Shown: one piece after another, positions 1 to 9,537 of the stretch
Numbering within the stretch: position 1 is the first letter of the stretch
Layout: the number at the start of each line of letters is the position of its first letter
Virus record (IMG/VR): IMGVR_UViG_3300031656_000034
Span: 1-24,894 of that record
Length of the DNA stretch: 24,894 bases
Reading direction: 5' to 3' (one strand)
Source: a virus
Notes under the pieces: model-generated
Seen by the model: only the letters and a program-made list of their open reading frames with translations
What the model was told of the DNA's origin: nothing
Databases searched by the model: none
Made by a program: the position numbers and the translations under genes

Positions 1-376
1 AGTCGCCTGTGGCATAAAAATCCTTGGTCGCTACATTACGTACCTTAGTGCCTACTACTGTGGTGCCCTCCTGACTGTGGTATGGGTAATGGTGCTTACT
101 AATGCTACCATCCTTAGATTCTGTGGTTACGCCATATTGTTTGCACGTTTCCATGCTTATGCGTCTATCCTGTATTGCTGTAATAGTGCCTGTCATTTCT
201 AAAGGCCTCGCTCTTGTCTTATTGGGGTTAACTACTGAACCATCCCCATGCTCATATGCGTCACACACAAAACAAACGGAATGGTTATCACTGTATATAG
301 CCTTACCATCAGATGAACCACAAGAACCACATGGCCCATGCTTAACAAAGGTACTTTCTATTCTCTCATATTTCAT
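1..376 (-). CDS. Primase-helicase, T7 gp4-like (N-terminal part, runs off the left edge)
   Basis: This is the first 125 codons of a gene reading leftward out of the window. The visible part is a zinc-binding primase domain. Cysteines at residues 16, 19, 35 and 38 form C-x2-C-x15-C-x2-C, almost the same positions as the zinc site of T7 gp4 (17, 20, 36, 39). The local motifs CGSSDGKAIYSDNH and CFVCDAYEHGDG also resemble gp4. In that family the domain recognises the priming site and makes RNA primers, while a C-terminal RecA-type helicase unwinds the fork; the helicase part is not visible here. The ATG is preceded by AGGAG. It follows the candidate SSB gene by 84 bp that include a stem-loop. The family call is strong. 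The full length and the presence of the helicase half are inferred. Confidence 0.87.
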   Translation of the reverse strand, partial: MKYERIESTFVKHGPCGSCGSSDGKAIYSDNHSVCFVCDAYEHGDGSVVNPNKTRARPLEMTGTITAIQDRRISMETCKQYGVTTESKDGSISKHHYPYHSQEGTTVVGTKVRNVATKDFYATGD

Positions 377-460: not shown

Positions 461-826
461 TTAGAAGTCCTCGTCTGTGTTTCCTGAGGCAAGCTCCAGC
501 ACTTTCACCTTATCTAAGTATGGTGTAAATCCGTGGACTGGGTGCTCGTCACCTAAGCTATATTGTACCCGAACCAAGGAACCACGGGTGACCTGACCCA
601 TAAACTCATCACCATCGGCCTCATATAAGGGTACGTTAAACTTACTGGCAAACTTGCGTTGTTTCTGACCCTCATACTCACGCATTTTGACACCCTGAGC
701 CTCTAGCTGCTCAATAGACTTATCATCTAAAGTGACTGTTAATGAATACTTACCAGTTGATTGACCTTGGTAAAGCTCATGCTCTGACAAATTGATAAAC
801 GCTGCACTGCCTTGAATTACTGACAT
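461..826 (-). CDS. Candidate single-stranded DNA-binding protein (T7 gp2.5-type role)
   Basis: A 121-residue protein. It ends in an acidic tail with a terminal aromatic residue, NTDEDF, a hallmark of phage and bacterial SSBs that use the tail to contact replication partners. The body alternates short beta-prone stretches (YSLTVTLDD, FNVPLY, SLVRVQYSLG, KVKVLELA) as expected for an OB fold. It is about half the length of T7 gp2.5, so it would be a minimal OB-fold SSB. It lies directly upstream of the primase-helicase gene and is the first gene after a consensus promoter and long leader, so replication functions are grouped. SD AAAGGA precedes the ATG. The call rests on the tail, fold pattern and context, not on recognised sequence identity. 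Confidence 0.65.
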   Translation of the reverse strand: MSVIQGSAAFINLSEHELYQGQSTGKYSLTVTLDDKSIEQLEAQGVKMREYEGQKQRKFASKFNVPLYEADGDEFMGQVTRGSLVRVQYSLGDEHPVHGFTPYLDKVKVLELASGNTDEDF

Positions 827-2663: not shown

Positions 2664-3323
2664 TTATGCCGCCTCTTTTAAATCAATCAAACGAATTACT
2701 TTAGCCATAGATACCCCATGAGCCACATATGCTGTAGTTTTGACCTCTTTAGACCAACAAGCCCGACACGTACCACATTTACCTTCTCGCTCGTAGGCAT
2801 AACACACGAACATACTACTATCAGCATATTCTAGAGTAGGTATTATTGTGCTTGTGGGTAGTTCAGTGTCTATTGTGTCGCCTAGTACACTATCACTAGA
2901 CAAGCGCACCACCACATTAGATAGCCTAGACATAATATTAATAATGTCGTTAAACTTGGAAAATTTGTGCATACGTGTAGGTAGCCAATGATTGCAATGT
3001 GGTGTTTGTTCCATTACTGCTAGCATCTTACGAGCTAGTCGAATGTCATACATATCACCCGAATCAAACCATCGAAAATACCTATCGTTGTCTAGTTCTG
3101 CCACCATATCTGATACCCACTCACTACGCTTCCAATCCTCTTTGTTGTGCGCTCTAGGCGCTTTGACATTGGGAAAGCGGTAGTTTCCTGTAGTGGCATA
3201 ACAACCTTTACAAGCGTCTACTAGCTCGCCTGTGGTAGGTTCTAGGCTAGCAGGGCACGTTACAAGCGCCTCAAGCGACCAAGAGCGACAAGGCATTTTA
3301 CTTGCTTTAGATAGTTTGATCAT
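2664..3323 (-). CDS. Gp88-like cysteine-rich phage protein (possible Fe-S or radical-SAM-like)
   Basis: A 219-residue protein, the largest gene of the leftward operon apart from primase. It has two cysteine groups. The N-terminal one has C12, C23 and C38-x2-C41 in DACKGCYATTGNYRF. The C-terminal one lies near residues 174-190 (CYAYEREGKCGTCRACW). Between them are RWFDSGD (about 84-90) and HWLPTRMHKF. This pattern matches a phage family I know as Gp88 from mycobacteriophages, related in style to CxxC proteins suspected of iron-sulfur chemistry. The biochemical activity is not established to my knowledge. The eight conserved cysteines suggest a metal cluster or two zinc sites. The SD is weak (GTGAG). 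An inverted repeat lies upstream at 3362-3389. Confidence 0.7.
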   Translation of the reverse strand: MIKLSKASKMPCRSWSLEALVTCPASLEPTTGELVDACKGCYATTGNYRFPNVKAPRAHNKEDWKRSEWVSDMVAELDNDRYFRWFDSGDMYDIRLARKMLAVMEQTPHCNHWLPTRMHKFSKFNDIINIMSRLSNVVVRLSSDSVLGDTIDTELPTSTIIPTLEYADSSMFVCYAYEREGKCGTCRACWSKEVKTTAYVAHGVSMAKVIRLIDLKEAA

Positions 3324-3741: not shown

Positions 3742-3902
3742 TACTTGCGCCCCTTTGGATTGTTTTTAAAATATTCCTGAGCATGACAAAATCTATCAAA
3801 CTCTTTCTTTTCTTTTACTGTCATAGATTCGACAACAGCCGATTTGACCTCTTGCTTACAAGCTTTTATGAAGTCGGAACGCTCTTTATTTGTCATAATC
3901 AT
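3741..3902 (-). CDS. Small charged unknown protein (53 aa)
   Basis: A 53-residue ORF rich in Lys and Glu (VKEKKEFDRF), with two cysteines, predicted all-helical. It ends PKGRK; those codons double as the SD for the next gene. Its own start is preceded by AAGGGGCGCAAG within the last codons of the 104-residue gene and overlaps that stop codon by one base. No family is recognised. Confidence 0.65.
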   Translation of the reverse strand: MIMTNKERSDFIKACKQEVKSAVVESMTVKEKKEFDRFCHAQEYFKNNPKGRK

Positions 3903-4216
3903 TACTTGCGCCCCTTAAATTCTGCCCATGCTTTTAACTCGTTGTCACTATAGTAGTGACCATCATGAAAGCCACCATTAGCCCATACCCATGTTACAAA
4001 CTCTAGCTTTTCATTTTGTGCCATAACTACAAAATGATGATCATTATGGAAGTCATGAAGCACCTGTGATGCAGCGTCTTTCCAAGCTAGTATGGCCACG
4101 CCTTTAGCTCTAGCAGTGTTAAACATGTGCCTTTGGGCAATAATGCTGGCCTCTAGCCATGCCTCATGCTTGAGGCCTTGTGCGTCGATTTGTGCGTCAG
4201 TAGTGTAGTTAGTCAT
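3902..4216 (-). CDS. Unknown protein (104 aa), first gene of the leftward operon
   Basis: A 104-residue protein, rich in His and aromatic residues, with HDFHNDHHFVVMAQ and a Gly/His turn GGFHDGHYYSDNE. It may bind metal, but the spacing does not match a known site. The SD AAAGGG lies 7 bases before the ATG, about 60 bases downstream of the predicted transcription start of the 4284-4311 promoter. Being first after an early-type promoter, it should be among the first phage proteins made, a position often held by host-takeover or anti-defence proteins (inference). Confidence 0.75.
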   Translation of the reverse strand: MTNYTTDAQIDAQGLKHEAWLEASIIAQRHMFNTARAKGVAILAWKDAASQVLHDFHNDHHFVVMAQNEKLEFVTWVWANGGFHDGHYYSDNELKAWAEFKGRK

Positions 4217-4283: not shown

Positions 4284-4311
4284 AGTATAATTGAATAAAC
4301 AAAAGTGTCAA
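4284..4311 (-). promoter_or_regulatory. Sigma-70 promoter of the leftward operon
   Basis: Reading leftward, a perfect TTGACA (4306-4311) is followed by 16 bases and TATACT (4284-4289). Transcription should start near 4277 and run into the 104-residue gene at 4216. Unlike the other two operon promoters, it lacks the CTTAAG-containing leader. Confidence 0.8.
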
Positions 4312-4502: not shown

Positions 4503-4541
4503 TGTGGATAACTTATACACATATGCACAGAGTTATCCACA
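4503..4541. repeat. DnaA-box cluster, left group
   Basis: Three nonamers: TGTGGATAA at 4503-4511 (perfect box, minus orientation), TTATACACA at 4513-4521 (fits the relaxed consensus TTATNCACA, plus orientation) and TTATCCACA at 4533-4541 (perfect, plus). The first two are head-to-head and 1 bp apart. Confidence 0.75.
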
Positions 4542-4564
4542 GACTCACAGGTTTGCTTGGGTGT

Positions 4565-4642
4565 CAAGTGTCTCCATAGGCACCCACCTAGGCATACACT
4601 TGTCAAGCTGTGACTACACAAGACACAATAGTCACGCTATTG
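4565..4642. repeat. Overlapping inverted repeats inside the origin region
   Basis: There are three inverted repeats. CAAGTGT (4565-4571) pairs with ACACTTG (4596-4602), with an inner TAGG/CCTA. GTGACTA (4610-4616) pairs with TAGTCAC (4629-4635). CAATAG (4626-4631) pairs with CTATTG (4637-4642). The last two overlap, so they are alternative folds. Such hairpins could serve primosome loading or strand switching at an origin (inference). Confidence 0.55.
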
Positions 4643-4675
4643 CATACCTAAGTTACTTATGTTAACTCAAGAACC

Positions 4676-4838
4676 TGTGGATATATCTGTGGATATATCT
4701 GTGGATTACCTGTGGATAACTCAAGTCCTTAGGTAGCCTGTGGATAAACCTGTGGACAACTCAGGTGCCTTGAGGCCTGTGGATAAGCTGGGGATAACCT
4801 GTGTGCTGCCTGTGGATAACTTAAGAGCCTGTGGATAA
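4676..4838 (-). repeat. DnaA-box array, right group (ten boxes, one orientation)
   Basis: The plus strand reads TGTGGATAA (reverse complement of TTATCCACA) perfectly at 4711, 4739, 4778, 4811 and 4830. Single-base variants occur at 4676, 4688, 4700, 4751 and 4789. All ten point the same way. Several neighbours are 11 or 12 bp apart, about one helical turn. Many copies extend to a longer unit, CCTGTGGATAACTTAAG. Confidence 0.8.
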
Positions 4839-4988
4839 CTTAAGGGGACGGGGGGGCTGGAGTGTTCTCTATAAACTAAGGCTACCACCTAGGCACAAAA
4901 AAGTAGCATTTTGCTTTGACACAAGCAACCAAAAGTCAATAAAAGATTACAAAAGAAAACACAGGTAACTTATTGGTATACATGGGAA

Positions 4989-5053: not shown

Positions 5054-5082
5054 TTGACTTTCTGCTCTAAATATGTTATAAT
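5054..5082 (+). promoter_or_regulatory. Sigma-70 promoter of the rightward structural operon
   Basis: TTGACT (5054-5059), a 17-base spacer and a perfect TATAAT (5077-5082). Transcription should start near 5089, giving a leader of about 125 bases before the small terminase start. It is one of three TTGACT or TTTACA / 17 / TATAAT promoters in the window. Confidence 0.85.
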
Positions 5083-5188
5083 ATACTTATGTTGTAAAGC
5101 TTCTTAAGAACCTTTTAGTTATTTCTTTGTTTATAAATTAAAGAATAGCTTTAAGAGTCTTAAGTATACTTAAGTACACTTAACTTCT
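5083..5188 (+). promoter_or_regulatory. Structured 5' leader of the rightward operon
   Basis: The leader contains AACCTTTTAGTTA, then AATTAAAGAATA, then three 10-bp direct repeats beginning CTTAAGTA at 5159, CTTAAGTA at 5169 and CTTAACTT at 5179. Bases 5117-5128 can pair with 5140-5150 (AGTTATTTCTTT with AAAGAATAGCT, one bulge, one G-U pair). The same blocks in the same order follow the leftward promoter at 946-974, so the two operons probably share a control mechanism. Confidence 0.6.
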
Positions 5189-5214: not shown

Positions 5215-5613
5215 TTGTCAACTACTAAAGAACCTATAGTAGCTAAAAGAAAAGGTAGGCCACCTAAAGCAGCACTAAAGAAACCTAAGGGGATTATTGG
5301 TCGGCCTAAAGGTGACGCTACAATTATAAACGAGTACAAAGCTAGGATGCTTGCGTCACCTAAGTCAGCTAAAGTTCTGGATGCTATCTTTGATGCAGCC
5401 TTAGACCATGACCATAAGAACCAAGCGTCAGCATGGAAACTTGTCATGGACAGGGTAGCCCCTATAGCAGCCTTTGAGAAAGAAATCATTAAGGGTGGAG
5501 GCAAGTCAGCCATACAGATTAACATTACTGGTGTAGGCCAAACTGACATAAGTTCTCCTCAGTCTCCTGATGATCAAGAAGATGCTCAAGAAGGGGAGTA
5601 TACTTTAGTATGA
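5215..5613 (+). CDS. Terminase small subunit with AT-hook motifs
   Basis: A 132-residue protein directly upstream of the large terminase and overlapping it by 4 bases (ATGA), the usual place for TerS, which recognises packaging sites in phage DNA. The N-terminus holds two AT-hook-like motifs (KRKGRPPKA near 11-19 and IGRPKGDA near 28-35) that bind the minor groove of AT-rich DNA. A helical middle (about 47-90, VLDAIFDAALDHDHKNQASA) follows, and the tail is acidic (DDQEDAQEGE). The start is TTG, supported by AGAGG 9 bases before it. The next in-frame ATG (5347) would remove both hooks. Identity rests on position and composition. Confidence 0.75.
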   Translation: MSTTKEPIVAKRKGRPPKAALKKPKGIIGRPKGDATIINEYKARMLASPKSAKVLDAIFDAALDHDHKNQASAWKLVMDRVAPIAAFEKEIIKGGGKSAIQINITGVGQTDISSPQSPDDQEDAQEGEYTLV

Positions 5614-6884
5614 GCGACCTAAGCATAGAACTACTTGAGTGGCAAAAGAAAGTATGGGCAGATGAGACTAGATTCCGAGTAGTTGCAGCAGGTCGAAGGT
5701 GTGGTAAGTCACGCCTAGCTGCTTGGTTGTTGGTTGTCAACGGCCTACAGGCTAACCTACCTAACTCACACGTGTTCTACGTAGCGCCTACACAAGGTCA
5801 GGCTAGAGACATTATGTGGAAACTACTAGTCGAGCTAGGTGCTCCTGTCATACGAAGTTCACACATAAACAATATGCAGATAACCCTAATCAATGGTTCT
5901 ACCATTAGCCTTAAGGGTGCAGACAGACCAGACACTATGCGAGGCGTAAGTCTAAAGTTCCTAGTGCTTGACGAGTATGCAGACATGAAACCTGAGGTGT
6001 TTGAAGAAATCCTACGTCCAGCCTTAGCTGACCAAAAGGGTAGCTGCTTATTCATAGGAACACCTAAGGGTCGTAATCACTTCTATGACCTATACAAGTA
6101 CGCAGAGTTGTCTGGTGACGATGATGAAACTTTCTCTGCATGGCACTTTACCAGTTACGACAATGAAACCCTAGACCCTAACGAAATAGATGTAGCTAAG
6201 AAAAGTATGTCTACCCATGCTTTCCAACAAGAGTTTATGGCCTCCTTTAAGAACCAAGGCTCTGAGATGTTTAAAGAAGAATGGTTATCATTCGGTTCTA
6301 AGCCTACAGGTGACGGAGACTACTACATTGCTATTGACTTGGCTGGTTTCCAAGATGTGTCTAAAAAGAAAGGTAAGACAAGTAGATTGGATAACTCTTC
6401 CTTAGCTATTGTGTTTGTCAATGAAGATGGTTGGTTTGTCGAAGATATGATCTATGGTCGATGGACTTTAGATGAAACAGCTCAGAAAATATTCCAAGCA
6501 GTACGAGACTATAAACCCTTGTCAGTAGGTATAGAGAAAGGTATAAGCAAACAAGCTGTTATGTCTCCCTTAATGGATATGATGAAAAGACAATCATTCT
6601 TTTTTAGAGTTGAAGAATTAACTCATGGAAACCAAAAGAAAACAGACAGAGTTATGTGGGCCTTACAAGGTCGTTTTGAACATGGTCGTATTACCCTTAA
6701 CAAGAAGAAGAAAGAATGGCACTCACGTTTCTGTGATGAGTTATTTCAGTTTCCTGACCCATTAACACATGACGACTTGGTAGACTCCTTAGCCTACATA
6801 GACCAATTAGCCAAGGTAGCTTACATAGGCAACTTTGAAGAACAAGATGATTTTGAAACCCTAGACTCAATTAGCGGATACTAA
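5610..6884 (+). CDS. terL: Terminase large subunit
   Basis: This 424-residue motor packages DNA into proheads at the portal and cuts concatemers. The ATPase domain has Walker A GRRCGKS (28-34), Walker B FLVLDE (117-122, catalytic Glu122) and the coupling motif FIGTPKG (148-154). The C-terminal RNase H-like nuclease has metal-binding acids at Asp243 (YYIAIDLAG), Glu309 (VGIEKG) and the HDDLVD motif (387-392). All key residues are intact and the length is normal. The ATG overlaps the stop of the small subunit gene (ATGA), and the portal gene starts 4 bases after its end. Confidence 0.96.
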   Translation: MSDLSIELLEWQKKVWADETRFRVVAAGRRCGKSRLAAWLLVVNGLQANLPNSHVFYVAPTQGQARDIMWKLLVELGAPVIRSSHINNMQITLINGSTISLKGADRPDTMRGVSLKFLVLDEYADMKPEVFEEILRPALADQKGSCLFIGTPKGRNHFYDLYKYAELSGDDDETFSAWHFTSYDNETLDPNEIDVAKKSMSTHAFQQEFMASFKNQGSEMFKEEWLSFGSKPTGDGDYYIAIDLAGFQDVSKKKGKTSRLDNSSLAIVFVNEDGWFVEDMIYGRWTLDETAQKIFQAVRDYKPLSVGIEKGISKQAVMSPLMDMMKRQSFFFRVEELTHGNQKKTDRVMWALQGRFEHGRITLNKKKKEWHSRFCDELFQFPDPLTHDDLVDSLAYIDQLAKVAYIGNFEEQDDFETLDSISGY

Positions 6885-9256: not shown

Positions 9257-9479
9257 AATGTACGATTACAAATGCACACTAGGACACATCAACGAACACA
9301 TGGTTAAAGGCTCACCAGACACACAGAAATGTAAGTCCTGTAGTGCCTTAGCAACCAGACAACTTTCCTCTCCACGTTCTTCTTTAGAACCTTTCTCTGG
9401 CGACTTTGCTGGAGCAACTCTAAAATGGGTTAAAGACCATGAACGAGGTAGAGTGCAAGCAGAGAAAGCCAACTCCTAG
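9249..9479 (+). CDS. FmdB-like small zinc-ribbon protein
   Basis: A 76-residue protein whose N-terminus (MYDYKCTLGH) matches the FmdB/CxxC family opening, followed by a second knuckle CKSC at residues 28-31. The first knuckle reads C9-x3-H13, not CxxC, so zinc would be bound by Cys3His. The tail (about 35-76) is Ser/Arg-rich and probably flexible. FmdB-type ribbons are thought to regulate or chaperone; in phages they are often found among head genes. ATGs at 9243, 9249 and 9258 are all possible. I chose 9249 for its SD spacing (GTGAAG). It overlaps the previous gene by 8 bases. Confidence 0.75.
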   Translation: MYKMYDYKCTLGHINEHMVKGSPDTQKCKSCSALATRQLSSPRSSLEPFSGDFAGATLKWVKDHERGRVQAEKANS

Positions 9480-9537
9480 TCTTAGGAAGCTTTCATTTTT
9501 AATCACTTCTCCACAATACTAAGGTACGGAGTTTAAT

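Follow-up and report, generated by a model that had tools for sequence, protein, structure and literature searches.

An array of DnaA boxes beside a conserved G-rich element may form the exchangeable half of a modular phage origin

Introduction

Phage origins and entry signals that contain DnaA boxes are already known in kind, from lambda and T5. Phage P1 is another known case of such boxes at a phage origin: in oriR they assist the phage/plasmid initiator. DnaA, the host initiator, is also a transcription factor. In T7 the primary origin is opened and primed by the phage's own RNA polymerase.

In bacterial oriC, several consensus boxes lie in one orientation with 2-bp gaps, and easily melted AT-rich DNA is found on one side of them. 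The consensus bound by E. coli DnaA, TTA/TTNCACA, is degenerate at positions 5 (N) and 3 (W), and the oriC site clusters show the 2-bp separation (PMC6070618). The DnaA-trio, an unwinding motif of the B. subtilis type, is defined as lying within 16 bp of a box (PMC8287927). A DnaA-box cluster outside oriC, datA, is present in E. coli. Host DnaA is found at the lambda ori region and protects lambda DNA (PMC3985674). A scan of alphaproteobacterial phages did not find clustering of DnaA sites (PMC9437464), and our own literature search, carried out mostly outside subscription journals, found no paper on phage DnaA-box arrays of the kind described here, apart from work on T5 and lambda and one Ori-Finder prediction.

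We analysed a virus record from IMG/VR, 24,894 bases long and referred to in full as the window. The window is incomplete, and the primase-helicase gene is cut by its end. An earlier note, made from the sequence of the window, had reported an array of DnaA-box-like 9-mers and proposed that it could be either an origin or a sink for DnaA.

Results

The array was found at positions 4503-4838, mainly on the minus strand. A recount gave the seven perfect and six near boxes that the earlier note had listed: exact copies of TTATCCACA/TGTGGATAA start at 4503, 4533, 4711, 4739, 4778, 4811 and 4830, and copies with one mismatch start at 4513, 4676, 4688, 4700, 4751 and 4789, giving 13 boxes with at most one mismatch in 336 bp. 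The expected number of exact boxes for the entire 24.9-kb window is 0.19 and no shuffle exceeded two, in agreement with the claim that chance would give almost none. An origin of the array by chance or low sequence complexity was ruled out by this expectation, by the shuffles and by a letter-permuted control (see below).

The TGTGGATAA sense is shared by 11 of the 13 boxes, namely the box at 4503 and the ten boxes of a main head-to-tail cluster (4676-4838, minus strand); the earlier statement that ten share one orientation is thereby slightly corrected. Start-to-start steps along the cluster are 12, 12, 11, 28, 12, 27, 11, 22 and 19 bp, so that several boxes are indeed 11-12 bp apart and the remainder are more widely spaced. 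The outlying boxes (4503-4541) face each other: 4503 is on the minus strand, 4513 (with the sequence TTATACACA) and 4533 on the plus strand. A comparable outlying pair is present in the relatives L008, L010 and L013. Besides the boxes, the array region contains repeats, and its inverted repeats are weak (19 nt, 79%, 4562-4605).

The intergenic location reported for the array was borne out, since the region is crossed by none of the genes of the predicted operons. On one side of it are the early genes of the minus strand, the last of which starts at 4216, and on the other the terminase genes of the plus strand, which begin at 5215. The leftward operon begins with a gene for a protein of 104 aa without a family match (3902-4216, minus strand) and contains small genes, a gene for a Gp2.5-like ssDNA-binding protein (461-826, minus strand; phrog_112, E 1.2e-4) and the start of a T7-type primase-helicase gene (2-376, minus strand; phrog_239, E 6e-22; PF21268). 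The rightward late operon starts with the likely terminase small subunit (TerS; 5215-5613, plus strand), which has no family match and is assigned by position only, its gene overlapping the start of the gene for the terminase large subunit (TerL; 5610-6884, plus strand; phrog_2, E 6e-41; PF03237); portal and capsid genes are found in the same operon.

The phage is uncultivated and probably virulent. No isolate was close to it at the DNA level; PolA showed 49% identity to that of Pelagibacter phage HTVC103P, and the portal protein a weak likeness to those of HMO-2011-type phages. Terminase matches in metagenome-assembled bins were considered as a guide to the host and distrusted, as the bins belonged to discordant phyla. 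The replication genes of the family comprise PolA, primase-helicase, 5'-3' exonuclease, endonuclease I and ribonucleotide reductase. A single-subunit T7-type RNA polymerase was found in none of 11 relatives of the window, itself incomplete, with a model that was positive for T7 and A7. Phage-encoded DnaA was found in 0 of 16 family members, and a phage DnaA as the reader of the array was therefore ruled out.

The relatives were gathered by a search with TerL (n=80), and the slot upstream of TerL was scored. It was readable in 54 members, window included, with TerL identities of 72-94%. The array occupied the same slot in 21 of these 54 (the window and 20 others), and no such array was present in the other 33. 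The check for the array in relatives, suggested in the earlier note, was thereby clearly positive, with loss or exchange in many of the others. Box copy number differed among close relatives, and the 9-mer was kept. On the TerL tree, the array state switched at least five times on well-supported branches and nine times on the best tree.

The 20 distinct arrays of the family contain 120 exact and 76 one-mismatch boxes. The mismatch fell at position 5 in 30 of the 76 and at position 3 in 20, i.e. 50 of 76 at these two positions versus 22% expected if mismatches were uniform; positions 2, 4, 8 and 9 were changed one or two times each. These counts are of non-independent events, since the arrays are related and internally duplicated, and no p-value is given for that reason. 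The figures are family-wide: among the window's own six variants only some fit TTWTNCACA. Between same-strand neighbours in the family arrays, the commonest spacing was 11 bp (69 of 143), which corresponds to a gap of 2 bp.

IMG/VR was scanned for box triples with start-to-start steps of exactly 11 bp. Such triples were found at no fewer than 119 loci, and a control with the letters of the triple permuted matched 0 contigs. Arrays of the identical 9-mer occurred in unrelated groups, among them T7-like Autographiviridae, Lactococcus 949-type phages and microviruses, and in several host groups. Misfiled bacterial oriC regions were ruled out as their source: in 50 other array-bearing IMG/VR records among the matches listed, a terminase was found in 26 and a DnaA domain in none, and the window itself is phage. 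DnaA-box clusters are thus common in phages, and the term "unusual", applied in the earlier note to the strategy behind the array, needs qualifying.

In the microvirus mar39, four exact boxes at 11-bp steps lie just past the replication-initiator gene (3782-3823), and other microviruses also match. In three Autographiviridae the direct terminal repeats are filled with boxes: A7 (1-177 and 39882-40058), Kp7 (1-238) and phiEap-1 (1-195). These repeats of 177-238 bp hold four to five exact boxes per copy. T7 has one exact box genome-wide and none in its terminal repeats.

On its TerL side, the array of the window is directly followed by a G-rich element, GGGGACGGGGGGG (4844-4856, plus strand), which is kept in relatives with and without the array. 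Further downstream, aligning about 30 relatives, with and without the array, revealed a conserved element, GGCTACCACCTAGGCACAAAAAAGTAGC (4879-4906, plus strand), with a consensus of about GTAGnCACyyAGrCACAAAAnAG. In outline only, the G-run of the window may resemble mitochondrial CSB II.

The 60 bp near the slot that melt most easily, a candidate unwinding region, were located at 5112-5171, that is, 268 bp past the G-rich element; only 0.1% of positions in the window are easier to melt. In 7 of 7 long relatives, the corresponding stretch lay at a distance of 148-341 bp beyond the G-rich element, with 0-0.19% of genome positions easier. An easily melted AT-rich stretch was thus present in every genome tested, but at this distance and overlapping the late promoter and leader; it may be an unwinding region, or may instead reflect the AT-richness of the promoter and leader.

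Two putative sigma-70-like promoters, each with 11 of 12 matches, diverge from the array: TTGACA-16-TATACT (4284-4311, minus strand) faces the early genes, and the TG-extended TTGACT-17-TATAAT (5054-5082, plus strand) faces the terminase and late genes. No DnaA-trio was seen beside the window's array; the motif was absent from most members, with short, chance-like runs in five other arrays. The IHF consensus WATCAANNNNTTR did not occur in the array region. Third-position GC skew gave no leading-strand signal, and skew was dropped as evidence for an origin, its flip at the slot being accounted for by gene orientation.

In many of the relatives that lack the array, the slot was filled with unrelated repeats, such as CCTAAGTCTAACTGTTG, AAGGCCTTGAGTTAG or CATGCCAACTC. 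Those of the first kind are iterons that recur about every 31 bp upstream of TerL in L042, L059, L069 and others.

The TerL proteins of the relatives L052 and L053 are identical, and the two relatives share 96% DNA identity over the stretch that runs from the G-rich element through TerL. Upstream of the element the two are unrelated apart from a 36-bp patch, and their arrays differ. The same abrupt divergence at the G-rich element was observed between L030 and L038. Because two near-identical pairs diverge abruptly at this point, the array side is best described as a swappable cassette. In both pairs the G-rich element coincides with a possible recombination hot spot.

The exchanged tract comprises the array and the neighbouring small early genes; the replication genes farther out are similar again between the types. 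L079 and L038, whose array types differ, share 80% DNA identity over 4.3 kb of early and replication genes. Such similarity of the replication genes across both slot types makes it less likely that a phage replication protein reads the array, and no initiator gene that co-varies with the array-less state was obvious among the relatives.

A GP88-family cysteine-rich protein (PF17338) is encoded near the array of the window (2664-3323), and in other relatives it is replaced by a related-looking type of 250 aa without a Pfam match. The association of the GP88-like early gene with the presence of the array was not significant (Fisher p 0.13), and on this result the link was rejected.

Discussion

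The array, its neighbours, their conservation and swapping, and the gene content are read directly from the sequence. The mismatch spectrum, the 2-bp gap and the recurrence of the identical 9-mer in arrays of unrelated phage groups indicate that the sites behave as DnaA boxes, as had been claimed; on these grounds their recognition by DnaA is very probable.

The explanation we favour, with confidence that is about even, is that the array is a platform for host DnaA and the exchangeable binding half of a modular phage origin, with DnaA as the binding or opening factor. We infer DnaA binding, opening and the start of replication at the slot in the following way. Host DnaA would occupy the array cooperatively, and the bound protein would help to melt AT-rich DNA or bring the host helicase or RNA polymerase there; the phage primase-helicase and PolA would then take over. 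DnaA would replace the opening step that is supplied in T7 by T7 RNA polymerase. In the array-less relatives, the repeats of the slot presumably bind another factor, so that the array serves as a cassette that can be exchanged.

The earlier note had argued that a phage with a T7-like primase-helicase would not need DnaA. This argument is weakened by the finding that the family is without the T7-type RNA polymerase, the opener of T7's origin, and so needs some other opener. An origin at the slot is plausible because the slot adjoins a G-rich element found family-wide, near the easiest-melting DNA of each genome. The position of the slot at the divergence of the early and late arms also favours an origin, as does the conservation of the G-rich and downstream elements across slot types.

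Several observations stand against an origin. The DnaA-trio is absent in most members, and the melting DNA is 150-340 bp away, where it coincides with the AT-rich late promoter and leader. Of the 54 readable members, 33 lack the array or have other sequence in its place, in some cases with replication genes that are similar (L079 and L038). T7-like phages with an RNA polymerase of their own carry similar arrays within their terminal repeats. When compared with bacterial oriC, the locus also differs in that no dnaA gene accompanies it, the melting DNA lies beyond the G-rich element and the carrier phage has its own replisome. Lambda and P1 encode an initiator (O and RepA, respectively) with its own iterons, and none was recognised in the window's family.

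The array could alternatively be a titration sink, the multiple copies of the phage genome soaking up DnaA and halting new rounds of host chromosome replication, with no role in phage replication. This is in line with 13 strong or near-strong sites per genome, with the gain, loss and swapping of the array without change of the replication genes, and with the occurrence of arrays in phages of differing replication modes, microviruses and T7-like phages included; plasmids carrying DnaA boxes do titrate DnaA in E. coli (PMC5835720). A sink could lie anywhere in the genome, yet all arrays of the family share one slot and most directly adjoin the same G-rich element, and the other repeats in the slots of many relatives are left unexplained. 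The comparison with E. coli datA, made in the earlier note, was not supported in detail, since the window array has no consensus IHF site of the datA type. The array also differs from datA in holding more exact boxes and in being phage-borne. We consider a sink unlikely.

A further proposal is that the array, with DnaA bound, serves to stall or mark incoming or packaged DNA, either at the boundary of the early and late arms, where the window array lies, or at a physical end of the genome. A road-block of this type has likewise been proposed for the injection-stop signal of T5, in which DnaA boxes have been described (PMC13250531). We found one exact and three near boxes in the annotated signal of T5 (9437-9518), with two pairs at 12 bp, and two exact boxes (6121 and 6194) between the divergent pre-early promoters. 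T5 is thus similar to the window in its paired boxes near early genes; it differs in that the boxes are few and lie within a 10-kb terminal repeat, and the phage is unrelated to that of the window. A role at genome ends would fit the arrays in the terminal repeats of A7, Kp7 and phiEap-1 and the clustering of the relatives' contig ends near the slot, with 20 of 66 falling 1.0-1.75 kb upstream of TerL. Two relatives, however, form closed circles through an assembly overlap of 127 bp, long contigs also break elsewhere, e.g. in the tail-gene region, and the breaks are equally explained by variation of the slot in the population. The arrays of the three Autographiviridae resemble that of the window as non-coding arrays of the identical 9-mer; they differ in lying inside direct terminal repeats, in the presence of an RNA polymerase of their own (by model search in A7, annotated in Kp7 and phiEap-1) and in that the G-rich/CACAAAA core was not seen in the stretches examined. 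A function in entry or at genome ends appears distinctly improbable.

Two other explanations are less likely. Array-bound DnaA could repress or activate divergent early and late promoters and so time expression to the state of the host; DnaA is known to bind DnaA-box-like sites near the lambda pO promoter (PMC3985674), and the two predicted promoters do flank the array. However, some 190 bp separate the early promoter from its nearest box and some 215 bp the late one, distances too great for simple repression, and the immediate neighbour of the array is the G-rich element and no promoter, so that a transcription switch has little probability. A phage protein such as the terminase small subunit or an initiator might read the repeats, their likeness to DnaA boxes being incidental, as the position next to the terminase genes and the other slot repeats in relatives sharing late genes (as if protein and sites co-varied) could suggest, but this is very improbable given that the exact DnaA 9-mer recurs in unrelated phages, that departures from it fall where DnaA tolerates them, that TerL-identical L052 and L053 have different arrays and that no co-varying initiator gene is obvious.

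Two features appear to be new: a dense array that forms an exchangeable cassette next to a conserved core, and how widely such arrays occur, terminal repeats included. Returning to the origin that we favour, a broader and more tentative proposal, made from sequence comparison, is that a large, uncultivated family of podovirus-like phages that encode neither an RNA polymerase nor an initiator may use a cassette origin, in which the G-rich/CACAAAA core is fixed and host DnaA boxes are swapped for other repeats beside it, switching the opening factor. DnaA-box arrays would then be a widespread and largely unreported phage device. The probability of this proposal as a whole is somewhat below even.

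These findings bear on how DNA synthesis is started by T7-like replisomes without T7 RNA polymerase. Dense arrays for the host initiator are found in phages of many families, genome ends included. The swap boundary at the G-rich element offers naturally occurring pairs of phages that are nearly identical except on the side of the array, and either reading, origin or sink and road-block, is testable in laboratory phages with such arrays. Should the arrays be origins, phage replication would be linked directly to host DnaA; as sinks or road-blocks, they would provide a control of the host or of genome entry exerted by DNA only.
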